In this document: one piece after another, positions 1,106 through 42,062 of the stretch
How the letters are laid out: the number at the start of each line of letters is the position of its first letter
How positions within the stretch are numbered: position 1 is the stretch's first letter
Source of the DNA: Chitinophagales bacterium
GTDB taxonomy: Bacteria > Bacteroidota > Bacteroidia > Chitinophagales > CAIOSU01
Direction: 5' to 3'
Assembly (NCBI GenBank): GCA_040877935.1
Contig: JBBDNB010000057.1
Span: 127,813 to 191,812 of the forward strand
DNA: 64,000 nucleotides
Translations under genes and position numbers: made by a program
Notes under the pieces: generated by a model
Seen by the model: only the letters and a program-made list of their open reading frames with translations
Databases searched by the model: none
Told to the model about the DNA's origin: nothing

Positions 1106-3106
1106 CTACTTATAACTCCTCTGTTTCAGTTCAATATTTTCGTACGTCAATTCTTCTTTATTCAATTTAGGCTGCTCGGGTGTTCCCGTATATTCCCAGG
1201 CAGATACAAAAGTATATTCAGCATCATTCCTCTTGGCCTCTCCTTCTTCTGTTTGTGATTCTTCACGGAAGTGCCCGCCACAGGATTCATTTCTGTTCAA
1301 TGCATCTATGCACATCAGCTCTCCCAATTCGAGGAAATCTGCAACACGACCGGCTTTTTCCAATTCTGGATTGAACTCATTCAGCTCGCCTGAGACTTTT
1401 ACATCTTCCCAAAATTCCTTTCTCAATTTTTGAATTTCTGAAATGGCCTTTTTCAAGCCTTCTTCATTTCTGGCCATTCCGCAATATTCCCACATGATGT
1501 GTCCCAGTGCTTTGTGGAAAAAATCTACGCTGCGTTTTCCATTGATGGCGGAAAGTTTTTCAAGACGGGCTTTCACTTCATTTTCAGCTTCGTCAAATTC
1601 GGCAGTATTAGTTGGTATTTCACCAGTTCTGATATCATCCGCCAGATAATCACCAATGGTATAGGGGATCACAAAATAACCATCGGCCAGTCCCTGCATC
1701 AATGCAGAAGCACCAAGCCTGTTGGCTCCGTGATCGGAAAAATTGGCCTCGCCACAGGCAAAACAGCCGGGAATGGTGGTCATTAAATTGTAATCTACCC
1801 AAATGCCGCCCATAGTATAATGCACTGCAGGGTAAATTTTCATAGGTGTTACGTATGGATTGTCGTCCGTGATTTTTTCATACATCTGAAACAAGTTGCC
1901 GTATTTGGCTTTTACTACTTCTGTCCCCAACTCTTTTACCAGCGCCTTGTCATCGGGATTCAATCCTTTGGTGTTGGCTTCGATTTTTCCGTAGCGCTCA
2001 ATGGCCGCAGCAAAATCCAAGAAAACTGCCTGTCCTGTTTTGTTCACGCCAAAGCCAGCATCACATCTTTCTTTGGCCGCTCTGGAGGCAACATCACGAG
2101 GTACTAAATTTCCAAAAGCTGGATATCTTCTTTCCAAATAATAATCGCGATCTTCTTCTTTTATTTTTTCAGGCTTTACTGATCCATTTCTGATTCCTTC
2201 AACATCTTCCTTGTTTTTGGGCACCCAAATTCTTCCATCGTTTCTCAAGGATTCCGACATCAAAGTCAATTTTGACTGATAGTCACCAGATACGGGAATG
2301 CAAGTTGGGTGGATTTGCGTAAAACATGGATTGGCAAAATAGGCACCTTTTTTATGTGCTTTCCAGGTAGCCGTTACGTTTGAGCCCATTGCATTGGTCG
2401 AAAGGAAAAACACGTTTCCATATCCACCGGAGCACAATACCACGGCATGACCTGAATGTCTTTCTATTTCTCCAGTAATTAAATTCCTTGCGATTATACC
2501 TCTGGCTTTACCGTCCACTTTTACTATGTCTAGCATTTCGTGGCGATTGTACATTTTTATTTTTCCCTTGGAAATTTGACGGGACATGGCCGAGTATGCA
2601 CCCAGCAACAATTGCTGTCCGGTTTGTCCTTTGGCATAAAAAGTTCTTGAAACTTGAACACCACCGAAAGAACGATTGTCCAACAAGCCACCGTATTCCC
2701 TGGCAAATGGCACGCCCTGTGCTACACATTGATCGATAATGTTTGCAGAAACTTCTGCCAATCTGTAAACATTGGCTTCGCGAGAGCGGTAGTCGCCACC
2801 TTTTACGGTGTCGTAAAACAAGCGATAGGTGGAATCCCCGTCATTCTGGTAATTCTTGGCTGCATTGATTCCGCCCTGTGCTGCAATGGAGTGCGCCCTG
2901 CGCGGAGAATCCTGGAAGCAGAATGATTTTACATTGTAGCCCAATTCTGCAAGCGAAGCGGCAGCAGAAGCTCCGGCCAGCCCTGTACCTATTACGATTA
3001 TATCAATTGAGCGTTTATTGGCCGGATTGACCAGTCGGATATTGTTTTTATGATTGGTCCATTTTTTATCTATCGGGCCTTCGGGAATTTTTGAATTTAA
3101 ACTCAT
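1106..3106 (-). CDS. sdhA: Succinate dehydrogenase/fumarate reductase flavoprotein subunit
   Basis: Catalytic FAD subunit that oxidises succinate to fumarate (or the reverse) at the cytoplasmic face of the membrane. It is 666 aa, the length typical of the Bacteroidota b558-type enzyme. The N-terminal dinucleotide-binding motif ([19 protein letters not shown], from about residue 38) is followed by [12 protein letters not shown], in which H72 is the expected covalent FAD attachment residue. The [10 protein letters not shown] and [18 protein letters not shown] segments typical of the family's substrate and FAD sites are present. The ATG at 3106 lies 76 bp after the sdhC stop. It is co-oriented with sdhC and sdhB and presumably transcribed from the promoter upstream of sdhC. 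Confidence 0.97.
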
Positions 3107-3182: not shown

Positions 3183-3872
3183 TTAATTAAAAAGCAGTTG
3201 GCCTATGGGATTTCCCAAATATAAATTCACCGGGATAAGCGCAAATGCCACCGGTATGATCACTGCGAACAACAAACCGAATTTTTTGATCAGCGGACTG
3301 TATTTTGAATGGTTGATGCCCAGGGTCTGGAAGCCACTTTGGAATCCATGCACCAGGTGAAACCCGATGGGGATCATAGCCAGCACATAAACCACTACAT
3401 ACCACAACTTGTCAAAAGAGAACATTACCGCTGCATACAGGTCTTTGTTGCCATTGGCATCCATCTCCAGACCGCCAAAATGTGTTTTGTACCAGAAATT
3501 GGAAAGGTGCAAAACAATAAAAGCCAGGATCAGCGTACCGAGGATGCCCATGTTGCGGGAAGACCAAAGGCTGTTTTCACTGGCTTTGCTGTAGTTGTAT
3601 TTTACAGGTCTTGCAGCTCTGTTTTTTCTTGACAAGATTGCTGCATCTACCACGTGAAGGATAACACTTGCAAAGGTGACAATAGACAGAATCCTAATCA
3701 CCGGATTGCTGGTCATGAATTTTGCATATTCATTGAATTGCAGGCGTCCGGCTTCTCCGGGTATGAACAATTGCAGATTGCCGGCCAGGTGACCGATCAG
3801 AAAGACACACAGGAAAAGCCCTGTCAATGCCATCCAAAGTTTTTTACCAATAGTACTGTTGACCAAACTCAT
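3183..3872 (-). CDS. sdhC: Succinate dehydrogenase cytochrome b558 subunit
   Basis: Membrane anchor of complex II that binds haem b and the quinone. It is 229 aa with about five hydrophobic helices, the single-polypeptide b558 arrangement in which one protein replaces separate SdhC and SdhD. Histidines expected as haem ligands lie in the helices (for example within the GHLAGNLQLF and HVVDAAI segments and in FHLVHGFQSGFQTLG). It is the first gene of the operon, with ATG at 3872 and a good Bacteroidota-type promoter just upstream. No separate sdhD is present or needed. Confidence 0.95.
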   Translation of the reverse strand: MSLVNSTIGKKLWMALTGLFLCVFLIGHLAGNLQLFIPGEAGRLQFNEYAKFMTSNPVIRILSIVTFASVILHVVDAAILSRKNRAARPVKYNYSKASENSLWSSRNMGILGTLILAFIVLHLSNFWYKTHFGGLEMDANGNKDLYAAVMFSFDKLWYVVVYVLAMIPIGFHLVHGFQSGFQTLGINHSKYSPLIKKFGLLFAVIIPVAFALIPVNLYLGNPIGQLLFN

Positions 3873-3926: not shown

Positions 3927-4045
3927 CAATGTTGAGGATAAGTGAGTAGTTAAGAATGGGTCTAAATAAGTTTGATTTTTTGGCAAGGAGGGGCTTGGTA
4001 ATTTGAGGTTGCTTTACTGCTGGGGAAACAGGAGTGGGGGCTTTT

Positions 4046-4140
4046 GGTAAACGTGAGTCATCCGATGACTATGGCTCATAGACTATTCTACAGTATTTTG
4101 AGTTTAGAAAGATCAATTGGGTGCAGTCATCGGATGACTA
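4046..4140. repeat. REP pair (BIME), copy 1, upstream of the RAYT gene
   Basis: Two inverted REP palindromes: AGTCATCCGATGACT at 4056-4070 and its reverse complement at 4125-4139. Each forms a 7-bp hairpin with a 1-nt tip, and about 54 bp separate them. The whole unit is nearly identical to the copy at 4945-5038, including the leading GGTAAACGTG. A degenerate third REP-like hairpin (AGTCATCGATTTT...) lies at 4205-4226. Pairs of inverted REPs flanking a RAYT gene are the family's usual arrangement. Confidence 0.85.
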
Positions 4141-4350
4141 TGGCATGGTCTTTTTCTTGAATACTCCTACTGCAGCAAGAATTACTTTCTAATCAGATGT
4201 GGGCAGTCATCGATTTTATGTCGACTGATTACTGAAACTGTTATTCAATACAAATCAATCAAATGACTTTCTTTTAATTGGGGAGTTGAAGGATATTTTC
4301 AATTCTTTAGCTAGCTATGTTAAATATCAAAATATACTTATCTTCAAATC

Positions 4351-4950
4351 ATGCGATTTACTGACAACGAGATTTACCATATATACAACCGTGGCAATAA
4401 CAAGCAAACTGTATTCTTCAAAAGAGAGAATTATTTATACTTTTTAAGGAAGGTTAGAAAACATCTTATGCCACATTGTGGTTTGCTGGCATATTGTCTA
4501 ATGCCCAATCATTTTCATTTTTTGGTTTATACCAGTAAGAATATTGATGGTGTTTCTAAAAATCGCCCGATAAATAAGGAAAAGTCGCAACATCCTATTT
4601 CAATGGCTATTGCTGTTATACTCAGATCTTACACACGTGCAATTCAAAAACAGCAAAACGTTACAGGGTCTGTCTTTCAACAAAAAACAAAAGCCAAAGC
4701 ATTGAATTCATCTGATGAAAATTATCCTTTCATATGTTTCAACTATATACATCAAAACCCGATGAGGGCAGGTCTTGTAAAGCGTTTGGAGGATTGGGAG
4801 TTCTCATCTTTTCGAGATTATGCGGGTTTGAGGAGCGGAACCCTTTGCAATTGCAATTTGGCAATGCAGCTTATAGGTTTTGATGAAAATAAATTCATGG
4901 AGGAATCCTATGCTGTGATTGATGAAGCTCATATTGAACGGCTTTGGTAA
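4351..4950 (+). CDS. REP-associated tyrosine transposase (RAYT, Y1_Tnp family)
   Basis: A 199-aa single-strand DNA nuclease of the HUH/Y1 superfamily related to IS200/IS605 TnpA. RAYTs cut and rejoin REP hairpins and are thought to disperse them. The HUH motif is clear (MPNHFHFLVY, H54-F55-H56), and the catalytic tyrosine is expected to be Y132 in FNYIHQNPMRAGLV, the family hallmark. The ATG is at 4351. The gene appears intact and is bracketed by two REP pairs. The 3' end is unusual: the TTTGG-TAA that ends the coding sequence is itself the left edge of the downstream REP unit, and the same CTTTGG-TAA context recurs in the upstream copy. Mobility could be in trans on REPs elsewhere; no IS-type ends are seen. 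Confidence 0.9.
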   Translation: MRFTDNEIYHIYNRGNNKQTVFFKRENYLYFLRKVRKHLMPHCGLLAYCLMPNHFHFLVYTSKNIDGVSKNRPINKEKSQHPISMAIAVILRSYTRAIQKQQNVTGSVFQQKTKAKALNSSDENYPFICFNYIHQNPMRAGLVKRLEDWEFSSFRDYAGLRSGTLCNCNLAMQLIGFDENKFMEESYAVIDEAHIERLW

Positions 4951-5038
4951 ACGTGAGTCATCCGATGACTATGGCTCATAAGCTATTCGCAGTATTTTGA
5001 GTTTGGAATCATCAATTGGGTGCAGTCATCGGATGACT
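4945..5038. repeat. REP pair (BIME), copy 2, overlapping the RAYT stop codon
   Basis: REP hairpins at 4956-4970 and, inverted, at 5024-5038, with a spacer nearly the same as in copy 1 (4046-4140). The repeat starts inside the last codons of the RAYT gene, so the TAA at 4948-4950 belongs to both. It ends about 40 bp before the 3' end of the metalloprotease gene, so transcripts of both neighbours could carry these hairpins. Confidence 0.85.
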
Positions 5039-5079: not shown

Positions 5080-8000
5080 TTATCTTTTCACGAAACGCAG
5101 TACCTGGTTGTATTTTTGATTTTCCTGAGCAGATATCCTCATTAGGTATATCCCGGAACTAAAATCAGTCAAAGGGATACTGATGGTTTTTTCTCCTTTC
5201 TCCATTAAATGTTGAGCGAGCTCTTTGCCAATCACATCAAACAACTGTATTGTAATTGGTATTGCTGCTACTTCAGAAGGGATTTCAATGTTAATATATC
5301 CATCGGCAGGATTCGGGTATATTTTAATTTCAGATTGTTCGGGCAGGTCAATATTGTTTGCCGAACATTCGGAAACCGGGATAATTTCATCTGTACTGAA
5401 ACATTGCCTGTTGCCGTAGTTTGTAGCTGTGACCTCCACATTTTGAGAGGAGGGAAAAGGACCGATATACACATTTGGTTCGTTCATGCTTGCATAGAAT
5501 GTGTCATTGCTCACATTATTGGTTATTTCAAAAAGATAACCGATTGTGTTTCCGGTAATACTGCCCTTGATCCAGTATTCGGTCTGATTATTTGCGGAAT
5601 TCAATATACAGGTGTCGGTGTAATTCAATTCAGGAGTGCTGCAATAGGCACTGGTACAACCTGTGTTAAAAGTTTTGCTTATGGAACAACCACCATCAAT
5701 GGCAAAGTCAACAATGATGTCGGTGCCATTGGGGAATGGACCAAGTGTTTTTGTTCCCGGAGCATTGAATGATACAAAGTCGGCATTGTAGTCATTGGTG
5801 GCGGTAAATGTATTGGATTGGGCATTGGAATGTAACTCTATTTCGATGTAGAAATTCTGTGAATCGTTATTAAGGCAAACAGGCGTAATGCGTGCATCAG
5901 GAACAGGTTCAATGGTAATCTCATATCCCCCCAGCATTTGATATACAGCAGGAGTGGATGGGTCATTGTCATGATCGCAAATTGCATAGGCAAAATAAAC
6001 CTGTGTTTCGGGTAAGCCAGTGGAGGGATTGGAATTAAGCGTTGGCCCATTGTAGCCAGGCAAATCATCTGGTTCCTCAGGATAAGTATTTACTCCCTGC
6101 ATTTCTATAGGCCGGTCAGTCCAAATAATTTCTGAAAACAAACTGGCATCCGATATGCCCAGATCGGGAAAACCACCTGAAAGTGTGCTGCCAGAACAAA
6201 TGGACTCACTACCTCCTGTAAAAGTACTGCTGACACATTCGTTTTGTGGTGTACATGCAGGGCAGTCAGGTTTTTTAACCACAAAACTTTTTTCACAGTC
6301 AAAAAAACTTAGAACGCTAAAGCTTATATCGCTTCCCGTGCTTCCACAGGTTTCTACCGGAAGCGGGTTTGGGGTTACATCATCCAAAGGACAGGCCGGG
6401 ACAATTTCATAGATACAATCCATATCCCCGTTAATGATATAGGATATTGAAGGTGCTTCTGGAAAAGGAGCCGGGTCGTGCAGGGTTACTGTACCCAGGG
6501 GGATATAACCATTCGGCACGCCATTTCCACTGGTGTCACAGCCCAGCGAAGTATAGATAAAAACATTGCTTCCAAATCCACAGCCATCTCCGTCATAGGT
6601 ATAATCCCGGTTTTCATCAAATGGCACTGAGCGCTCAGGGTCTGAAAAGTAATAGATATCATTTACATATCCATTGGGGTCAAAAAGACTGATGAGCGTA
6701 TTTTCATAGTATTGAAATCCATCCTCAAAATTGTAGTCGGGACAAGGTGTAAGTACATTCATGTTGCCTCCTGAAAATGCCACGCCCGGGCACTGTCCGG
6801 GAGTCATTTCGCAACGATACTGGGCTGTATCAATACGTGAGCAGGGCTGGCTGCAGCATGGACCTACCACAGTGGAATCGAAATCAACTGTATAGACAAT
6901 TTCTCCAGAAACCGTAGTGGGAAAAGTAGGATTGCTATGTGGAGTAAAAGTGATGTAATCATCACAGTTGGCAGCAAGGTCGGCTGCTGAAAATTCGGGG
7001 CCGGGGCCGGTATCACAATCCCCGTTTTTCAAGTACCTGGCCAATAATTGTTCAGGAGTCAGGTAGGACAGGACAACCACTTTTCCACCCATTTGTTTGG
7101 TACCGCTGGTACTGCAATTGATGTTAAGCCAATATTCAATGGTGTCCGGTTTGCAGATGGGTGAATTGCCGCTTACAACAGCTTTTGCAGGAAATTCAAC
7201 CAATGGGCCGGTCAGGCTTCCTATGTGCCATGAATATTCGGTTGTAGGGCTTACGTTTGTATTGTAATTCCAGTTTTGGGTGTACTGATTTAGATTAATG
7301 GTGTCTGTACCGCAAATGCGCAAAGTATCATGTGGGATATTGATGAGCAGTGCTGCACAGGCCAGTGCTCCCTGATTGCATTTGGATTCACCATTCAGTA
7401 CTCCGCCTGTTGAATTGCATGGAGGATTAAGGTTATTTGCAAAGGGCAGCAAGTTTTCAGCCTGTTTGAGATACAGCTTCATATAGGCTACTTGTTCATG
7501 TGTAAAGTTTACGGTCCAGGGCTTGCTGCTGTAATCCATAAAATTGGTCCACATTATAGTATTGCCACAATGTGTGACAACTTCGTTTTGAACATAATTG
7601 GGCACACCCGCTCCGGGACCGGAACTCGGGCGTCCATGCAAGGGGGTGTCTGAAAAACCATCATCTATGCCACAGAAAGTTGCGGGCGTTAAAAGATTCC
7701 AATTTGCAATATTGGTTTTGCCCCAGATATGTGAAAGTCCTAATAAATGTCCAATTTCGTGGGTCAAGGTCGTTCCTAAATTAACTATAGGGTTTGTTAT
7801 CAGGCCTCCCGGAATAAAAGCATTGTCATCAATTCTGACTCCTACTCCTGAATGAAAAAGATTACGGGCATAGCCCAGAAGACCTCCTCCGGCTATTCCA
7901 ATACCATAGTTTCCGATATATAGGTTTAGGTACTGACAACGATTTTTTATCGGTGAAGCTACCATATCTTGTCCGCTGATTATCCTGTTGTTAGGATCAA

Positions 8001-8502
8001 TCACTGTAGCATTAAAAGGCGCCATGTTTAAATTCACACGGTTCAGGTCATTATTGTTCCAGCAAAATTGAATACAGGTATTGGCACTTGCACTTCCATT
8101 GGCCCAGAATTGATCCTGAACCCTGTTTAGATTTGGATGTGTCCCCTGGTAGTGCATATTCAGTTGATCTATGGCAGTTTGTATTTCTGCTGTTGTAAAA
8201 TTATTGTCACCAGCTACATTTGCATTGCCTCCATTGTGTAGAATATGGATGTAGAGGGGGATGATACGTATGCCATCGGGGCAGCTTGCCGTTGCGGGTG
8301 TGCTGCGTTTACTTTGTTGTTTTACTGCAAGTTCTGCCGCAGCTCTTTGGTGTGCAAGTTGGTACAGTGCATATGCCTCGGGTTCTTCTGCTTTAAATTC
8401 TGCTTCTAACTGATCGTACAGACATGGAGCCTGAAAAGTGTTTTCCTGGGCAGGAAGCAAAGAAACAAATACTGCCAGAAGTGTAATCAAAATGCTTTTC
8501 AT
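5080..8502 (-). CDS. Secreted M43-family zinc metalloprotease with T9SS sorting domain
   Basis: A 1140-aa exported protease of the M43 (cytophagalysin/pappalysin) family. A signal peptide covers about residues 1-18. The catalytic domain spans about residues 75-350, with zinc motif HEIGHLLGLSH at 248-258 (three His ligands and catalytic Glu249) and Met-turn NFMDYSS with M322. About 700 cysteine-rich residues without a domain I recognise follow; they may be substrate- or surface-binding modules. The C-terminus (IYPNPADG ... GIYLMRISAQ ... FVKR) is a type A T9SS sorting domain, so the protein should cross the outer membrane and be anchored or released. ATG at 8502. It is divergent from the helical protein at 8677 and sits next to a REP pair. 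Confidence 0.93.
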   Translation of the reverse strand: MKSILITLLAVFVSLLPAQENTFQAPCLYDQLEAEFKAEEPEAYALYQLAHQRAAAELAVKQQSKRSTPATASCPDGIRIIPLYIHILHNGGNANVAGDNNFTTAEIQTAIDQLNMHYQGTHPNLNRVQDQFWANGSASANTCIQFCWNNNDLNRVNLNMAPFNATVIDPNNRIISGQDMVASPIKNRCQYLNLYIGNYGIGIAGGGLLGYARNLFHSGVGVRIDDNAFIPGGLITNPIVNLGTTLTHEIGHLLGLSHIWGKTNIANWNLLTPATFCGIDDGFSDTPLHGRPSSGPGAGVPNYVQNEVVTHCGNTIMWTNFMDYSSKPWTVNFTHEQVAYMKLYLKQAENLLPFANNLNPPCNSTGGVLNGESKCNQGALACAALLINIPHDTLRICGTDTINLNQYTQNWNYNTNVSPTTEYSWHIGSLTGPLVEFPAKAVVSGNSPICKPDTIEYWLNINCSTSGTKQMGGKVVVLSYLTPEQLLARYLKNGDCDTGPGPEFSAADLAANCDDYITFTPHSNPTFPTTVSGEIVYTVDFDSTVVGPCCSQPCSRIDTAQYRCEMTPGQCPGVAFSGGNMNVLTPCPDYNFEDGFQYYENTLISLFDPNGYVNDIYYFSDPERSVPFDENRDYTYDGDGCGFGSNVFIYTSLGCDTSGNGVPNGYIPLGTVTLHDPAPFPEAPSISYIINGDMDCIYEIVPACPLDDVTPNPLPVETCGSTGSDISFSVLSFFDCEKSFVVKKPDCPACTPQNECVSSTFTGGSESICSGSTLSGGFPDLGISDASLFSEIIWTDRPIEMQGVNTYPEEPDDLPGYNGPTLNSNPSTGLPETQVYFAYAICDHDNDPSTPAVYQMLGGYEITIEPVPDARITPVCLNNDSQNFYIEIELHSNAQSNTFTATNDYNADFVSFNAPGTKTLGPFPNGTDIIVDFAIDGGCSISKTFNTGCTSAYCSTPELNYTDTCILNSANNQTEYWIKGSITGNTIGYLFEITNNVSNDTFYASMNEPNVYIGPFPSSQNVEVTATNYGNRQCFSTDEIIPVSECSANNIDLPEQSEIKIYPNPADGYINIEIPSEVAAIPITIQLFDVIGKELAQHLMEKGEKTISIPLTDFSSGIYLMRISAQENQKYNQVLRFVKR

Positions 8503-10120: not shown

Positions 10121-11848
10121 TCATTTTACAAGCAACTTAAAACTCGTCCTTCCATTTTTAGAATAAATATTCAAAAAGTACAAACCTGCGGCAGCATCAA
10201 GTGAAACAGAAGTGTTTTTTTGCTGTACCTGTATTTGTGGCAAAATCACTTTGCCCGAAAGGTCGGTGACTTCATAATGGATGTTTCCGGAGATGTCTTT
10301 TACTTCAAGTACAAAATCACCAGAACTGGGATTGGGGTAAACTGCAATTTTTTCTATCAGTGTATTTTCATCAATTCCGATTACAGTAATATTTACACAA
10401 TCGGAAGTATCGCTGCAATTGTTCTTGTTGATGGCTACTGCATAATTTCCACTTGTACTTGCGGTAAAAGCCTGTCCCGTTTCACCCTGGATTTCAGTAT
10501 TGTTGTCGCAATCCAGCCATTGATAGGTGGCTCCGGTTTCATTGGCAGTAGCAGTGATATTGTTCATATTGACTGTTTTGTCAATTTGCTCAACAGTTAA
10601 TGTTGTTGTGATCGTGCTGTCGCAGCCCATTGAACTGGTGAGCAGGCTGGTATAAACTGAATCTGTCATACCAATATTCCCATCGGGAAAAGTATAGGAT
10701 TCGCCCTGGCAAATGCTGACATCCTCTGCCAAACTATAAATTTGGGCTATCACAATGGTGTCCGAGGCGGATGCAGCCGGGCATCCACCTGAAGCTACGA
10801 TTTCATTGGTAACGATATAGGTTCCTAATGCACTGGAAGATATATTGACAGTTCCGGTAGCTGCATCAATAATTAATCCGGCAGAACTTGAAAAATTGCC
10901 TGCACTTGCACCGCTGTCTAATGTAATTGTAGCTATGCCTGCTCCCGGGCCGCCACAAAAGGGCGATCCTGTATAGCTAAATCCTGCATCTGGTGTGGTA
11001 TTGATCACAATATCAAAATAGGCGGTGTCCGGACAAACGCCCAGGGTTCTGTACATTACTTCATAATTACCGGCACCGCTGGCTTGCAGGTCTATTTCAC
11101 CTGTAGTTGAATTTATGGATAAATTATTGTCTCCGGAAAATACGCCTCCGCTTGTGCCATTGATGGTAGGAGTGGGGTCACTTCCTGTCAGGCAAAAGAA
11201 GCCACTGCTGTAGCTGAAGGAAGCATCGTCTTTCGGCAATACGTTTACGGTAACGGAGTCTTCAACGGTATTGGCACTGCCATCTAATCGTGCATAGTAG
11301 GTTGTAGTAGCTCCCGGATTGACCACAAGTGGATTGGTTGTATCCAGGTTATTTCCGTTTCCTCCCGGCCCATCATACCAGGTGAGGGTAGCGCCATCGC
11401 CTTCCACAACTCCATGTGCAGTAAGTGTTACGCTTGTTTCGGGGCAAACATCATTCACATCTGCTGTAACGGAATCTATCTCTGAAGGAGTTGCAGGAGC
11501 TAACACTGTAATTACCCCGGTCATGCCCGCAAATAAATGAGGGTCGCAGTGATAATCATAATTTCCAGCTATAGAGAATACAAATGTATAAGTCCAGCCA
11601 GATCCTACTGAATTGCCAAAAGATTCGGGGTTGGAGGGATAAGATCCTGTGGTGCCATTTACATTGTGACTTCCCGAAACATTGGTCCATCTTACCGTAT
11701 CCCCTACATTTATGGTGACACTATCAGGGTCGAAATAATTGCTCCCTACTTCAATGTCAATCAAATCCTGGCTATAAGCAAAGTTGTAGCTTGCTATAAT
11801 CAATACAAGCTGAATCAATACAGAAAATAGAGTAACTGTTGGTTTCAT
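10121..11848 (-). CDS. Secreted cupredoxin-domain protein with Ig-like repeats and T9SS sorting domain
   Basis: A 575-aa exported protein. I place the start at the ATG at 11848, not the upstream in-frame TTG at 11878, because MKPTVTLFSVLIQLVLIIASYNFAYSQ is then a normal signal peptide. The first ~100 mature residues form a plastocyanin-like domain with the type 1 copper ligand pattern: His in SGSHNVNG, then Cys, His and Met in YDYHCDPHLFAGMTG. Ig-like segments rich in VCPETSVTLTA and FCLTGSD-type strands follow. The C-terminus (VYPNPSSGDFVLEV ... GLYFLNIYSKNGRTSFKLLVK) is a T9SS sorting domain. A copper-binding surface or electron-transfer role is inferred from the ligands only; the partner is unknown. 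Its 3' end abuts the convergent helical protein. Confidence 0.88.
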   Translation of the reverse strand: MKPTVTLFSVLIQLVLIIASYNFAYSQDLIDIEVGSNYFDPDSVTINVGDTVRWTNVSGSHNVNGTTGSYPSNPESFGNSVGSGWTYTFVFSIAGNYDYHCDPHLFAGMTGVITVLAPATPSEIDSVTADVNDVCPETSVTLTAHGVVEGDGATLTWYDGPGGNGNNLDTTNPLVVNPGATTTYYARLDGSANTVEDSVTVNVLPKDDASFSYSSGFFCLTGSDPTPTINGTSGGVFSGDNNLSINSTTGEIDLQASGAGNYEVMYRTLGVCPDTAYFDIVINTTPDAGFSYTGSPFCGGPGAGIATITLDSGASAGNFSSSAGLIIDAATGTVNISSSALGTYIVTNEIVASGGCPAASASDTIVIAQIYSLAEDVSICQGESYTFPDGNIGMTDSVYTSLLTSSMGCDSTITTTLTVEQIDKTVNMNNITATANETGATYQWLDCDNNTEIQGETGQAFTASTSGNYAVAINKNNCSDTSDCVNITVIGIDENTLIEKIAVYPNPSSGDFVLEVKDISGNIHYEVTDLSGKVILPQIQVQQKNTSVSLDAAAGLYFLNIYSKNGRTSFKLLVK

Positions 11849-12302
11849 ATCTGTTGTTTTTTTTGATTTTATAAGCAAGTGGTTTTAATTGAAGTTATAA
11901 AATTTCATTTAAACTATCGCGAAACGATAGGATTCCGATTCCTACAGTCAGATGCCTTGCTCTAATGAAAACCCGAAATGAAAATTTCAATATGTTAGTC
12001 AATGGATAGAATTATCAGCCAGCGGCTGACAAAGTTTCCACTCGCAGGATGCGAGCGGAGGCAGGGAAGTTGGTTTTTGAAAATGTAATTGTCAAATGAC
12101 AATTTTGCTATAGTTTTATTCAAATTTCTTATCTTGGAAGTATGAGGATTAAAGAGCTTGCCTTTCCCCAATTCACGAGAATACGATGAGCATTTCCATG
12201 AAAAAAGGGAGGGTTACTATCTTTAGCTTGAATTAAACAAAATTTAGCCTACATTTTCCGTGAGTATTGAATATCCCGGGCTAAAAGTCAATTCATTATA
12301 CA
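11849..12302. other. Intergenic region with short hairpins and no gene
   Basis: 454 bp without a credible gene on either strand. Small hairpins occur at 11914-11930 (CTATCG/CGATAG), 12016-12028 (CAGCC/GGCTG) and 12041-12055 (CTCGCA/TGCGAG); the last two lie in a locally GC-rich patch that looks like a dispersed intergenic repeat. TATCTTTA at 12218-12225 could be a weak -7 element for the RhuM gene, though no good -33 element is seen. Confidence 0.5.
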
Positions 12303-13133
12303 ATGGAAGAAAACAAATCCCAAATCATCATTTATCAAACGGAGGACGGAGAAACAAAATTAGACGTTCGCTTTCAGGATGAAACCGTTTGGCTTACTCA
12401 AAAATTGATGGCGGAATTATTCCAAACTTCGGTTCCCAATGTAAACATGCATCTCAAAAACATATTTGAAGAAGGTGAATTGGAGGAAAATCGAACTATT
12501 AAGGATTTCTTAATAGTTCAAAAAGAAGGAGGCCGAGAGGTAAAAAGAAAGCAGGTTTTTTACAGCCTTGATGCCATTATTTCAGTCGGATATCGCATAA
12601 AATCGCATATAGCAACCAAATTCAGGCAATGGGCAACCAAGCACCTGCGAGAATACATTGTGAAAGGATTTGTACTTGATGACGAACGCTTGAAAAACCC
12701 TGATTTACCGTTTGATTATTTTGAAGAATTGGAAAAGCGAATACAAGATATTCGTACTTCAGAGAAACGGTTTTATCGGAAAATCACGGACATTTATGCA
12801 ACAAGTGTTGATTATGACCCCACTTTGGATATTAGCATTGAGTTTTTCAAAACTGTTCAGAACAAACTACATTGGGCAATTACAGGCCAAACGGCAGCAG
12901 AGATAATTAGTGAAAGAGCAGATAGCTCCAAAGATAATATGGGGTTAACGACTTGGAGAGGTTCTCAAATCAGAAAGACAGATGTGTCTATTGCAAAAAA
13001 TTATCTCAATGAAGAAGAATTATCTGCACTGAACAATTTAGTTGAACAGTATCTGATTTTTGCACAAGGGCAGGCACAGAGAAGAGTGCCAATGTATATG
13101 AAAGATTGGGTTGAAAAATTAAATGGGATTTGA
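12303..13133 (+). CDS. RhuM-family protein, truncated by a frameshift
   Basis: RhuM (virulence protein RhuM) family, found on mobile islands across bacteria; biochemical role unsettled. 276 aa are read before a TGA. The N-terminal half (FQDETVWLTQKLMAELFQTS, VFYSLDAIISVGYRIKSH, FRQWATKHLREYIVKGF) is the conserved RhuM/KilA-N-like DNA-binding region, and the C-terminal core (TGQTAAEIISERADSSK...GL) is also present. After KLNG at about 13127 the frame breaks: the expected last ~58 residues continue in another frame to 13303. Loss or gain of a base in the GGGATTTGAAA run explains this. Not in an operon with its neighbours; probably an acquired accessory gene now decaying, unless the break is an assembly error. 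Confidence 0.82.
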   Translation: MEENKSQIIIYQTEDGETKLDVRFQDETVWLTQKLMAELFQTSVPNVNMHLKNIFEEGELEENRTIKDFLIVQKEGGREVKRKQVFYSLDAIISVGYRIKSHIATKFRQWATKHLREYIVKGFVLDDERLKNPDLPFDYFEELEKRIQDIRTSEKRFYRKITDIYATSVDYDPTLDISIEFFKTVQNKLHWAITGQTAAEIISERADSSKDNMGLTTWRGSQIRKTDVSIAKNYLNEEELSALNNLVEQYLIFAQGQAQRRVPMYMKDWVEKLNGI

Positions 13134-26813: not shown

Positions 26814-27230
26814 TTATGTTTGTTTCAAACACTGAATAAAGTCAGTAAAGGTTAGAATTTTAGTTTTTTTAATTTCTTTCAAAACCAATAAATCTTTATC
26901 TCCCGTAATTAAATAATCAGCCTTGGAATCAACTGACAGATTAAGTAAAAAATTGTCTTTTTTATCTCGGCAAACTTGAAGATTCGATTTGATATTTACC
27001 AATTCTCCGTATTGATTGAAACTGTCTAATAATTTTTCTATATCCTTAGATGAAAAGTATTTCTTGAATTTAGGACGGCTTACCACCTCAGTGAATTCTT
27101 CAAGAAGCTCTTCAGAGAAAATCAAGCGGACTTTATTTTTTTCAATCAACTTATCGAGTTGATTAAATTTATTGGATATTAGAAAGCTAATCCAAAGATT
27201 TGTATCAAGGATAATCTTCTTACTTTTCAT
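26814..27230 (-). CDS. PIN-domain toxin (COG1569 type)
   Basis: A 138-aa PIN-domain protein, a predicted Mg-dependent RNase toxin. Acidic active-site positions: D9 in KIILDTNLWISFL, a glutamate in the EELLEEFTEVVSRPKF block, and the aspartates of RDKKDNFLLNLSVDSKADYL and ITGDKDLLVL. ATG at 27230 lies inside the end of the upstream gene (11-bp overlap), the usual coupling in such pairs. The pair is inserted between folC and the TonB operon and shares their orientation. Confidence 0.87.
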   Translation of the reverse strand: MKSKKIILDTNLWISFLISNKFNQLDKLIEKNKVRLIFSEELLEEFTEVVSRPKFKKYFSSKDIEKLLDSFNQYGELVNIKSNLQVCRDKKDNFLLNLSVDSKADYLITGDKDLLVLKEIKKTKILTFTDFIQCLKQT

Positions 27231-27435
27231 ACCGGGATTTCCTCACTTCTTCAACTTCCTTTGTTATTTCATCGAGGCTGATATCACTTTTGGATTTAGT
27301 TCTTAATTTCTTTAGAAGGGTAGAAAAGTCTGGCTTGTTTTTTTCTTTATTGATCTTAATCAAATTTAAGTCTGCCAAATTCTTTAAAAGATTTTTGGCT
27401 TTTGGGTTTAATATGTCAATTTGTATGCTTTCCAT
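27220..27435 (-). CDS. Antitoxin partner of the PIN toxin
   Basis: A 71-aa charged protein immediately upstream of and overlapping the PIN gene. MESIQIDILNPKAKNLLKNL followed by ADLNLIKI is the familiar opening of small antitoxins paired with COG1569 toxins in Bacteroidota (ILNPKAKNLLKNLADLNLI-type). The C-terminal half (LLKKLRTKSKSDISLDEI) is helical and likely binds the toxin. Assignment rests on pattern and position. Confidence 0.78.
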   Translation of the reverse strand: MESIQIDILNPKAKNLLKNLADLNLIKINKEKNKPDFSTLLKKLRTKSKSDISLDEITKEVEEVRKSRYEK

Positions 27436-27526
27436 AAACGCTCAATTTATATAAATCTATGAAATTGTTTTGAGGTCAAGAATTTTATCTTGAGTAATAA
27501 TAAGAAGTTATGGGATATTACCTGAT

Positions 27527-28522
27527 TTAACGCAATTTGAACGTAAAGGTAATAATCCCAAACTGTTCTTCAGAGGCATTGGAATCTGAATTGAACTTTG
27601 CTTTTCTGGCAGCTTCTTCAGCCAATTTAATAAGATGTGCATCGGTAGTTGTGGAACCTTTGCTGGTATATGATGCCGAGATTACATCACCATTGCGGTT
27701 TACTTTAATGCGCACAGCCACAATACCCGTTTCCTGTGATTGGTCCTTAATAGGTGGGATACCCATCAGGCTTCTGCCTTCCAGGTCGTAGCCCACGCCT
27801 TCGTTTCCAAGTCCGTAACTTTTATCTCCATCGTAATTTTTTGAATCGGGACTACCATCTTCTGCTCCCTGGTCACCACTGCCTTGCTTGTTTCCATCGC
27901 TGCCTTCTTTATTTTCTTCTGCCTCACTGCCTTTGAACATTGCCCTATCGTCCACTTCGGGTTTGGGTTCTTCTTTCTTTTCTGCTGGCTTTTCCTTTGG
28001 AGGTTCTTTCGCTTCTTCTACCGGCTCTTTCTCTTCCTCTTTTGTTTCTTTTACGGGTTCTTTTTCAACTGGTTTTTCTTCTTTGGGCTCCTCCACCGGT
28101 TCTTCTACTTTTTCTTCCGGTTTTTCAATGGCAGGTGCTTCATCTACATCTTGCGTTTCCACTTCTTCAACAATTTCTTCCGGAACTTCTTCAGTTTCAA
28201 TTTCTTCAACTTCCTCCACTGGGATTTCTTCGGGCACTTCCTCTACCGGTTCGGTTTCTTCCACCACTTCCTCTTCCACTTCTTCCACAGCCTCGGCAGC
28301 GGGCTCTTTTGCTGTAGGTTGAACATCACCTGCGGCTTCATCCACTGTGCCGAAATTGATCAATACCCCTTGTTCTGGATCTGGTGGTTCTTTATGATAC
28401 AGGCCAATGAAAAAAAACAATAGCAATAAAAGTAAGTGAATGATCGTGGAAGTGATCATTCCTTTTCTCTTGTTTTTGCGCTCAGTTGAGTGCCATGCTA
28501 TATTTGCTCCGTTTTGAATCAT
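27527..28522 (-). CDS. tonB: TonB-family energy transducer with long Glu/Pro linker
   Basis: A 331-aa periplasm-spanning protein that links ExbB-ExbD to outer-membrane TonB-dependent transporters. One N-terminal membrane helix (about residues 21-42, ITSTIIHLLLLLLFFFIGLY). Residues about 60-200 form a low-complexity linker of repeated Glu, Val and Pro, then a Gly/Ser/Asp-rich stretch. A C-terminal TonB/TolA-like domain follows (IVAVRIKVNRNGDVISASYT ... LIKLAEEAARKAKFN ... ITFTFKLR). The linker is strongly acidic, whereas classical TonB linkers alternate Glu-Pro and Lys-Pro. Last gene of exbB-exbD-tonB, with ATGA overlaps throughout. Confidence 0.9.
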   Translation of the reverse strand: MIQNGANIAWHSTERKNKRKGMITSTIIHLLLLLLFFFIGLYHKEPPDPEQGVLINFGTVDEAAGDVQPTAKEPAAEAVEEVEEEVVEETEPVEEVPEEIPVEEVEEIETEEVPEEIVEEVETQDVDEAPAIEKPEEKVEEPVEEPKEEKPVEKEPVKETKEEEKEPVEEAKEPPKEKPAEKKEEPKPEVDDRAMFKGSEAEENKEGSDGNKQGSGDQGAEDGSPDSKNYDGDKSYGLGNEGVGYDLEGRSLMGIPPIKDQSQETGIVAVRIKVNRNGDVISASYTSKGSTTTDAHLIKLAEEAARKAKFNSDSNASEEQFGIITFTFKLR

Positions 28523-39900: not shown

Positions 39901-42062
39901 TTAGCGCAGCTACTGATACCATGCTTACAATTCAATACATCGACACCAATTCCTGCCAGGGTTTTGATACGGTTAATATTGGTGTTTATGAAAATCCTGA
40001 CCTGGAATTGTTTGCCCCCGATTCTGCCTGCCAGAATTCAGAAATATCTTTATTGGCAGCAGGCAATGGAGATTTAAAATGGTTTAACAGCGATACGACT
40101 ACTTCTACAGAGGTGATTTTATCCCAAAGCAATTATTTCTGGGCAGAACTCACAGATTCCAATACCTGTGTTACAAGAGATTCAGTATTTGTAAAAGCAT
40201 TGCAATTGCCACAGCCCAATGCGGGTGTGGATACTTTTGTTTGTTCCGGTGATACCATAAATATCAGCGGAAGTGCAGGAGTTGGCAATCTGGTTTTTTG
40301 GAACACCGGTGATTCAACGCTTGATATCAGTTTGAGCCCGGCACAGTCACACAATTTGGTCTTTTTTGAAATCGACAGCAATAATTGCCTGGGATCTGAT
40401 ACTGCATTGCTTGAAGTTTCGGCATTGCCTGCGATTACTTTCAATGGTTTGAAATCAAAATATTGTATTGGAGATACCATTGCGGTATTGGACATTCAAC
40501 CTTCTAATGGAAATTTAAGCGGAGTGGGAATCTCTGGATTTACATTTGATCCCAATGCAGTTCCTTTGGACAGCACATTGACATTGAGGTATGAAATTAC
40601 CGATACTTTCGGTTGCAGCAATAGCAGTGAAAAACAAACCATTGTGTATCCTTTGCCGGAACCTGAACTGAGTATATCGGATACCGGTTTTTGTGAAAAT
40701 CTTACGCCTGTTAGTTTGAGCGGAGCTCCCTTTGGTGGCCAATTCAAAGGCCCGGGCGTAAGCAATGATATTTTCATTCCTTTCTATGCAGGGGCAGGTA
40801 GGCATCTGATACAATACAGCTTTTCTGACAGCAACCAATGTGTAGCGGCAGATTCACAGTATGTTACAGTCTATCCATTGCCTCAACCCGCAATTGATAC
40901 TTTGCCTGAGGAAGTTTGCGTGGATGCACCTGCTTTGGAAATTGGGCTGAGCCATACGGGAGGCACATTGCAGGGTAAAGGACTGTCCGGTGATTCGCTG
41001 TTTGTTCCTTCCCAAGCTGGGGTTGGAGGGCCTTATGCCTTGGTATATTCCTATACCGATTCTAATAATTGCTCCAATTTCACCTTTCATGAAATTACTG
41101 TAAAAGCATTGCCTGTACTGAATTTCACAGGAGTAAAAGATGTCTATTGTGAAGGTATGGATACTGTGTTGCTTTCAGCAAGTCCGGAAGGTGGTTATTT
41201 CAGCGGATTGGGTGTGGATTCCTCAACTTCAACTTTAGTATTTGATTCAGTGCTTAAGCAAAGTACGCTTAGTTATCATTATTACGATAGCAGCAGTAGC
41301 TGTGCCAATAGTATTTCAAAAACAGTACAACAATCTGAAAACCCGGAAGTCAATTTTGTGAATGCTACGGATAGTTTCTGTGCTGATGTTTCTTTTGTAG
41401 AACTCCGGGCTGAACCTGCCGGTGGTATATTTAGCGGCAGCGGGGTGAATAATGATGTTTTTAGACCTCAAACTTTGGTAGCGGATTCAAGCTACACTTT
41501 AAAATATACTTATACTGATTCCAACAATTGCCGATCTGAAGCAAATGCAAGATATTATATACATGCCTTGCCAGAAGTAGCAATTTTAAATGAAGATTCA
41601 TTTTATTGCCAGGGGGAAATCCAACTGGTAGCAAGTCCTGAAGGTGGATACTTTACAGGTGCCGGTCAATATAATGGCGTGTTGTATCCTAAAGAATTTG
41701 CTCCAGGAAAATATGAAATTACATATACATACCAGGATGAAAATGCATGCCTGAACAAAACCCAAAGAATTTTCGAGTTTGATAACTGCACTTCAATTGA
41801 AGCCAATGTTATAGACGTAAACCTAAGTGTTTATCCCAATCCATTCAGTTCATTTATAAATATAGAATTTGGAGCAGCAAAAGTACAAAGACTTCAATTG
41901 ACTGATATCAGCGGCAAAGTGATCCTGGATCGGCAAATATTGGATTCATCGGGTGAAATTACACTGCAAATCAACGAAGCACTTAGTGATGGTGTTTATT
42001 TTCTTGGCATTTATACTGCCGAACAGCACATTGTTAAAAAACTCCTCAGGCAAGGCGATTGA
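33951..42062 (+). CDS. Giant secreted PKD/Ig-like repeat protein with T9SS domain
   Basis: 2703 aa. Signal peptide about residues 1-28, then a lectin-like beta-sandwich region (to about residue 225). Eight PKD domains follow in tandem, each with a WxWDFGDGxTSxxxNPxHxY core (DNA about 34,850-36,820). About seventeen SprB-like repeats come next (ADAG-D--IC-GD---L-ASGG--Y-WSNG pattern, about 36,820-40,440), then six or seven YC/GGxFSGxGV repeats like those of the upstream paralogue. The C-terminal sorting domain is LSVYPNPFSSFINIEF ... GVYFLGIYTAEQHIVKKLLR. SprB-type repeats suggest a cell-surface adhesin, perhaps used in gliding or attachment; no motor genes are nearby to confirm it. Confidence 0.9.
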   Translation: MKKSSTVKALFLLLFLCLIVQSLEVKAQCNFSSEYTTPFGWQSVGTTIGISGGSLNFNQTPGSPQTEHFYRQTVCPLNDDNWQAQFSFRLDTGNLMGHALLFLSNSNTNPSSSPGIGAYIFSDASNPTQLILVAQDNSNFYTSLGGPALEIEQDSIYHIVLERVNMGAARLSVFKDSLRQNPVAGSPIDLSFPGQNIVGLDYVIHGNNDQLPGVDFLTGAIEYLDIKDGCSAKIIGQDTVCSGQNFTYELNTANSYQWNTGESSRQITRSFSADQMLIGTITDTNQCSASDTLQIKVFDMPNAAFTASDYNSSKVPFNVNFTNNSTNANKWFWDFGDGNTSTDENPSHTYNSYGDFTVSLVAIDSSSGCADTAYAQINIEVISADFTSEATVGCGSTVIQFEDLSTGPITNWFWVFGNGSISTDRNPVAIYPNPGTYQVSLTVTDGVNTDTKTINGYIEIGSEASAPIVQFTADTTTSCTNDLSVQFTDQSQNAAAWFWEFGDGDTSHQQNPQHYYDSAGDYSVKLQVTNTLGCVRDTTYEDYIVIDPPRADFNASPSNACGPFTTNFEDLSYSADSIVSWFWDFGDGQTGNTQNPTHLYASTGVYLVTLTIEDENACSDSFTDTLRSGSIKPDADFTAAPSRVCIGEPVQFTDQSIDANQWFWDFGDGGALITQQNPVYSFADTGDYTVTLIACNDGCCDTISKMQDIEVIEPIAVFSADEPVGCSVPHQVQFSDESFSPSNWSWDFGDGNTSSQQNPQHTYQNIGMYTVTLIVQDTITLCQDTFTSNINIDTAQTNFAAFPLNGCTPLLVQFADNSRNPVAWNWDFGNGSTATVRNPLHTYVDSGSYDITLVTEIQNGCRDTLVRSDMITVVEPDIQISASVQSGCAPLTVDFENLTNGTANQFWDFGNGDTSDLKSPTVTFTQPGIYDITLQVEDINGCSNTEIFTQYIEVFDLPELTVSEDTAVCFGSQLDIFASGADTYNWNNGLFGDSIRLTIYTDSTLILTAIDSNSCQGTDTVNIEAMSLPNASAGVNDSVCLGESGTLNASGGDQYLWNEGTSTAQLTETVAVTTLFTVEVTDSNSCTASDSAYIVVRPQPIADAGNNDTICLGETGQLIGSGSGNLSWSNGNTGSLMLDSPLVTTDYVLTVTDVYNCRAFDTASIFVDDFTSAGILKADTICEGDTAVLEVFGGVNYSWSNGSFDAEIFVTPVSNTVYRVTITNDLGCTLTDSVEVVVNPLPNLNIPDASFCLGGYTILDANIGSGASYLWSTGSTTDTIKVHSAGEYTVIAESSFGCQAFDTVQTSVDTALVVELISDSLCDGQVHILDAGNPGASYLWNTGDTTQTIEVDQSGTFTVEVTDPFGCMGFDTADVFFFPRPLADAGADKEICEGDTALLIASGAVDYEWSNGISSDSNYVAPLSNTVYSVIVTDSNGCKDTASVNVQVNPLPVVSAGADVEACFGDTLTLNASGAVNYIWSNGVAQAQNTIIALQDSMLIVQASDTNFCDVFDTVNVFVNPLPVADAGQSDSICLGDTTMLVASGGAFYQWSNGFSNDTIFVSPVNTSIYRVSVSDSFGCTAVDSVEVFVKPVPVANAGSDQQICFGDSVQLTASGGDAYLWSTGDTSAQIKVAPTTDQDYVLEAINNFGCTDFDTVLVEVESQPQLVLTPDTAVCEGSFVELNVSGAATYSWSNGASGSSISVQINSDTVFSVTGTNTFGCVSQDSVEIQSIAPPVISVSNDTAVCIGSTVVLEASGAVNYLWSNGNSGAQISINPLNSNYYTVSANDVKGCTTVDSVYVEVYELPVFELNDQTFCTGGGTTLPGPSGDSQYNWNTGDTSQHIFVNTVGVYTLSVTDSNLCSYTDTAEVSDSSVLVIAIPDQDICSGQIAVLDAGYPDAQHQWSTGDTGMTMTTDSAGIFTVYVQDTFGCEGFDTVEVNLFSNPAVFIGSDTAVCEGTALGFAYSPVGTSIWNGMDTNSVFSFSAATDTMLTIQYIDTNSCQGFDTVNIGVYENPDLELFAPDSACQNSEISLLAAGNGDLKWFNSDTTTSTEVILSQSNYFWAELTDSNTCVTRDSVFVKALQLPQPNAGVDTFVCSGDTINISGSAGVGNLVFWNTGDSTLDISLSPAQSHNLVFFEIDSNNCLGSDTALLEVSALPAITFNGLKSKYCIGDTIAVLDIQPSNGNLSGVGISGFTFDPNAVPLDSTLTLRYEITDTFGCSNSSEKQTIVYPLPEPELSISDTGFCENLTPVSLSGAPFGGQFKGPGVSNDIFIPFYAGAGRHLIQYSFSDSNQCVAADSQYVTVYPLPQPAIDTLPEEVCVDAPALEIGLSHTGGTLQGKGLSGDSLFVPSQAGVGGPYALVYSYTDSNNCSNFTFHEITVKALPVLNFTGVKDVYCEGMDTVLLSASPEGGYFSGLGVDSSTSTLVFDSVLKQSTLSYHYYDSSSSCANSISKTVQQSENPEVNFVNATDSFCADVSFVELRAEPAGGIFSGSGVNNDVFRPQTLVADSSYTLKYTYTDSNNCRSEANARYYIHALPEVAILNEDSFYCQGEIQLVASPEGGYFTGAGQYNGVLYPKEFAPGKYEITYTYQDENACLNKTQRIFEFDNCTSIEANVIDVNLSVYPNPFSSFINIEFGAAKVQRLQLTDISGKVILDRQILDSSGEITLQINEALSDGVYFLGIYTAEQHIVKKLLRQGD

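Follow-up and report, generated by a model that had tools for sequence, protein, structure and literature searches.

The window, i.e. the whole 64,000-nucleotide stretch of DNA that was analysed, is part of contig C57 of a genome of 4.03 Mb in 63 contigs. A single intact ORF (4351–4950, plus strand), which specifies a 199 amino acid protein and ends in CTTTGG-TAA, stands between its left and right neighbours. To its left are two genes on the minus strand, 3183–3872 (a 229-aa membrane protein) and 1106–3106 (666 aa), which from a reading of their translations we take to be succinate dehydrogenase-like subunits, and to its right is a long minus-strand gene (5080–8502). Screening with PADLOC for an anti-phage defence assignment gave no match.

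The ORF, by profile matches, motifs and predicted fold a gene for a RAYT/TnpAREP-like HUH Y1 transposase, is bracketed by two direct repeats of approximately 97 bp at 4043–4139 and 4943–5038, which are 96% identical over 4043–4088 versus 4943–4988 and 94% over 4091–4139 versus 4990–5038. Each is made up of a leader followed by two 15-nt palindromic arms in mutual inversion, 53–54 nt apart (AGTCATCCGATGACT-N53/54-AGTCATCGGATGACT). The left REPIN-like element (4056–4139) has 54 nt between its arms and the right one (4956–5038) has 53 nt; single-strand folding gave z = −5.3 and −6.8, respectively, a good fold in both cases, in which the two arms pair. The earlier note had described two nearly identical inverted REP pairs around an intact RAYT gene, and its coordinates and sequences were reproduced.

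The two copies have in common a 13-nt leader, TTTGGTAAACGTG, which on the right (4943–4955, plus strand) holds the last two codons of the gene, the TAA stop (4948–4950) and five further nucleotides, as indicated by the sequence, the ORF and the comparison of the repeats. The first right-hand arm starts at 4956, and the stop thus adjoins the palindrome; it lies in the leader, 5 nt ahead of the palindrome, and not within the latter, which corrects the proposal that the RAYT stop lies inside the REP unit. On the left, a leader scar (4040–4055, plus strand), GGCTTTTGGTAAACGT(G), repeats the RAYT gene end with its stop but contains an additional T, GGC-TTTGGTAAACGT being aligned to GGCTTTTGGTAAACGT (GGCTTTTGGTAA in the left leader versus GGCTTTGGTAA in the right). 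As had been noticed before, this copy carries the gene-end context, CTTTTGG-TAA, at a place where no ORF ends.

Two further palindromes were considered. The third, degenerate REP-like hairpin of the earlier note was found at about 4192–4230 (ATCAGATGTGGGCAGTCATCGATTTTATGTCGACTGAT) and resembles the right-arm context (81% over 21 nt); it is plausibly a decayed REP. A cognate palindrome within the RAYT gene itself (TTCATCTGATGAA, 4707–4719) was rejected, since 27% of synonymous shuffles do equally well.

The RAYT protein and the dispersed REP family

The protein matches the NCBIfam REP_Tyr_transpos profile (E-value=2e-15; 56.9 bits, against a curated cut-off of 80) and Pfam Y1_Tnp (17.8 bits, against 23), both below the threshold. 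It contains the HUH motif NHFH (residues 53–56), the tyrosine motif YIHQNP (Y132) and WEFSS; NHFH and Y132 are invariant in an alignment of 40 relatives. In a larger set of 87 relatives, NHFH is again present in 84, YIHQNP in 61 and WxSS or WxxSS in 78; relatives come nearly all from Bacteroidota. The AlphaFold2 model has a mean pLDDT of 92, and the solved structure that best matches the predicted fold is the TnpAREP-REP hairpin complex of E. coli TnpAREP (4er8; Foldseek E-value=3e-7), followed by the TnpA proteins of ISDra2 and IS608. The gene combines two of the features that define a RAYT (TnpAREP): an HUH motif and a single catalytic tyrosine in a predicted Y1 transposase fold, and palindromic repeats which flank the gene and are also scattered in the genome. 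The third, binding and cleavage of the single-stranded REP, would be expected of the protein. It is assigned to a RAYT locus of the Bacteroidota type.

The arm motif GTCATCSGATGAC occurs at 21 exact sites in the 4.03 Mb genome, against none for the reversed control, and so recurs far more often than chance would allow. These sites correspond to about 14 elements: nine exact inverted pairs at 67–69 nt spacing and three single sites, in two cases accompanied by a second arm with one mismatch, with a diverged pair on contig C28 and another element on C21 in addition. Two inverted REPs are thus dispersed jointly as a unit, as in REPINs. An alignment of 13 elements revealed that the interiors are conserved near the arms and that the outer flanks are unrelated, except among local duplicates; inspection of the same alignment disclosed no conserved GTAG/GGAG-like foot at the arms.

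Whether this unit includes the leader was decided on several grounds. The earlier note had suggested that the REP unit, as mobilised, carries the 3' end of the RAYT gene, and had proposed as a check that REPs elsewhere be examined for the leader. None of the 20 outer flanks of ten other elements resembles it: they score 3–6 against the leader, versus 14 for the left copy, the 99th percentile of the null being 7. The exact 14-mer TTTGGTAAACGTGA has two sites in 4.03 Mb, both flanking the window RAYT, and BLAST matches to the left unit at other places in the genome begin at the arm, not in the leader. The genome of a related locus, L098, behaves similarly. Its dispersed REP matches mostly begin at query positions 117–122, with a few at 104–112, and the best of them start no more than a few bases from the gene-end junction; a match from position 75, well into the gene-end part, sits at the RAYT locus. 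The dispersed elements lack the leader, and the dispersed unit therefore excludes the gene end; by the refuting criterion of the earlier note itself, the suggestion fails. The leader belongs to the gene: the proteins of relatives terminate at nearly the same point, in many cases with IW, LW, IF or IY (IW or LW in 10 of 87 family proteins).

Elements or other palindromes were also noticed at several further loci of the genome (G000). On contig C8 (113000–118000; L055), three elements of this family with a common upstream flank of approximately 60 nt separate three modules: an ORF6N-domain gene, a ParE-like toxin preceded by a small ORF, and a nucleotidyltransferase/substrate-binding pair. On C37 (1500–5500; L060, 1306–2070) a REPIN lies just upstream of a DUF433/DUF5615 pair, beyond which part of the C8 flank repeat recurs. 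Other RAYT paralogues on C57 (~27158–27784; L047) and C49 (~11820–12350; L050) have their own, different palindromes, both beside the gene and within the coding frame. A distant Y1-transposase-like gene on C43 (~40113–40553; L052) has a separate palindrome family on both sides, with hairpins GTTCGTAGC...GCTACGAAC and ATCCGTAGC...GCTACGGAT.

Gene-end relics at related loci

For comparison, 80 related loci from a contig scan were added to those from 60 relatives, and 101 loci were compared, three of which duplicate contig regions already included. A direct repeat (score of at least 20) shared by the upstream and stop-codon regions was found at 74 of the 101; many or most of these repeats are palindromic and some are of other kinds. 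Downstream inverted repeats, which were found at 55 loci, usually begin no more than about 30 nt from the stop; their arms show greater self-complementarity than shuffled arms do (mean 3.96 versus 2.71; Wilcoxon p=2e-6). Because the repeats of the relatives display both properties, bracketing and nearness to the stop are ordinary in this RAYT family.

True intragenic REPs also exist among the relatives. In L086, from a Bacteroidales MAG, the RAYT is 52% identical to that of the window and nearly the same arm, TCATCCGATGACT...AGTCATCGGATGA, is found beside and inside the gene (CDS 264–293 and flanks), which suggests that the arm has been retained with the protein lineage. In L126 a stretch of approximately 100 nt near the start of the RAYT ORF (CDS 21–128) has REP-like arms and three repeats downstream (83–88%); here the chosen ORF start may be too early.

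Scars of the kind seen in the window were sought by matching upstream REP copies in non-coding sequence only and extending them in register through the stop into the CDS, with the gene ends of other, mismatched loci as the null (74 copies from 57 loci). Five loci scored 8 or more, versus 0.36 expected. One of them, L112, was set aside as its repeated segment apparently belongs to the neighbouring gene upstream and is no REP, which leaves four: L098, L096, L134 and the window. In L112 (−226 to +131 around the RAYT), this upstream segment of approximately 150 nt, apparently the end of that gene, recurs immediately after the RAYT stop, as though an insertion had duplicated part of its target.

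The clearest relics are those of L098, where a REPIN is followed by a RAYT 5' end relic together with a 3' end relic, a second REPIN, the RAYT gene, a third REPIN, a further 3' relic and a fourth REPIN. Between the two upstream REPINs, the 5' relic is ATAAACTTTGAAGCTGGCTCAATA, one base off the first 24 nt of the gene, and the 3' relic comprises its last ~30 nt and stop. This upstream relic is an internally deleted, REPIN-flanked RAYT which has kept both gene ends. In L144 copies of a 74-nt fragment of the RAYT 5' end (88%) lie between REPs on either side of the gene, and whole-unit matches are confined to the RAYT contig. In the window the gene-end remnant amounts to approximately 16 nt (a scar of 13–16 bases).

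Origin of the upstream leader

The reading that we favour, with a probability of roughly 0.6 taken as a whole, is that of a Bacteroidota-type RAYT locus whose elements are dispersed in trans and whose upstream scar derives from a lost upstream RAYT copy. By analogy with the family, the paired-palindrome elements are most likely the sites at which the HUH/tyrosine protein nicks and joins single-stranded DNA, and the protein would disperse them through the genome in trans. A second RAYT copy with its own downstream element would once have stood upstream and have been lost by deletion; the scar left of the upstream element would be its last remnant, as relatives with longer remnants suggest. The earlier note had offered, as one of two alternatives, a derivation of the left pair from an earlier RAYT gene end. 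The leader, being the gene's own, and the longer relics in relatives, of which L098 is the clearest, support this indirectly; with ~16 nt left in the window, it is a probable derivation. Tandem RAYT-REP units with later loss of the gene body would provide the simplest common account for L098, L144 and the window.

Against this reading there are the shortness of the gene-end remnant, with no significant further RAYT relic on either side of the locus or between its two elements, and the NCBIfam and Pfam scores, which lie under the curated cut-offs. The comparison was made without a close relative of the same genus, and neither an ancestral tandem copy nor an empty site was observable.

The strongest alternative is that a single step placed a copy of the right element, together with ~16 nt of gene end, upstream, by imprecise RAYT action, by template switching or by gene conversion between the two elements, and that a second RAYT never existed. 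Local direct copying of the gene end and element would leave an identical scar, and because only the last ~16 nt survive in the window, this origin keeps a minor share of the probability. The short scar and the want of any other RAYT relic upstream suit it, and so does the divergence, ~5–7% in the element and 0/13 in the leader, as a single event would give. The presence of the two ends of a RAYT, 5' as well as 3', in the equivalent upstream scar of L098 tells against it, since one-step copying of a gene end yields no such pair; on balance it is the less likely origin.

A chance match of the leader, or a repeat that is an ordinary duplication unconnected with RAYT action, is very improbable. 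The two copies have only 13–16 nt in common outside the element, and a score of 9 corresponds to p=0.003 for a single copy in the cross-locus null, with 74 copies tested; yet the common stretch abuts the element directly and in register, and the flanks of the other elements score far below the 14 of this one. Least probable, and already largely refuted, is that the leader has a function within the mobile unit, for instance as a guide or cleavage sequence, so that mobilised units carry the gene end: its perfect conservation between the two copies and the recurrence of TGG-stop at gene ends would fit, but the 20 unlike flanks, the two sites of the 14-mer and the starts of the dispersed matches in the L098 genome do not.

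The lost upstream copy allows a tentative extension, which we regard as possible rather than probable. Bacteroidota REP arrays might in part be built from tandem RAYTs which collapse by internal deletion and leave gene-end scars between REPs, as in L098 and L144, with the window as the last trace. Such collapsed units would be the missing intermediates, MITE-like, between an autonomous RAYT transposon and gene-less REPINs.

Relation to known systems

The locus bears on the origin of gene-less REPINs and on whether RAYTs ever moved autonomously. Collapsed RAYTs that keep both gene ends between REPs, most clearly in L098, are candidate intermediates which could be found systematically in Bacteroidota genomes; the window itself is one modest added example. 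It is otherwise ordinary for the known RAYT family of domesticated transposases.

The dispersed elements resemble the REPINs of Pseudomonas in their inverted palindrome pair, in dispersal as a unit and in the presence of a RAYT in the genome, but they number ~14 whereas Pseudomonas REPINs occur in hundreds of copies, and they have no obvious GTAG/GGAG foot. Bertels and Rainey, in 2011, reportedly described the Pseudomonas REPINs as pairs of short inverted palindromes that spread as one unit in genomes with a RAYT.

REPs that bracket RAYTs and supply or overlap stop codons have been published (PMC3733652, PMC6006769). Di Nocera et al. (2013, PMC3733652) describe REPtrons and TIRtrons, transposase genes flanked by repeats, some of which overlap the 3' end ('3'ov'), and report that the TAG stop codon of adjacent ORFs often comes from a GTAG REP. 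The window is alike in having a repeat-flanked transposase gene with a repeat at its 3' end; it differs in that the stop lies in a leader, short of the palindrome, and in that the upstream copy repeats this leader.

TnpAREP subclass 2.6, equated with Bertels group 5 by Quentin et al. (2018, PMC6006769), belongs to Bacteroidetes; atypical secondary structures flank its genes and recur at other places in the genome, and its proteins have the motifs YIH[QN]NP and NH[LIV]H, with SS in the C-terminal extension. Intragenic REPs have been published for subclass 2.4 (PMC6006769). The HUH motif listed for 2.4, NH[IFV]H, would admit the NHFH of the window gene, but the tyrosine motif of 2.4, YIxNNP, does not fit. 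Compared by motifs, the window gene agrees with subclass 2.6 in its Bacteroidetes host, YIH[QN]NP, the SS of the C-terminal tail and flanking structures with genomic copies, and it differs in the E which follows W, where 2.6 has Q. Because NHFH replaces NH[LIV]H, its assignment to subclass 2.6 is provisional.
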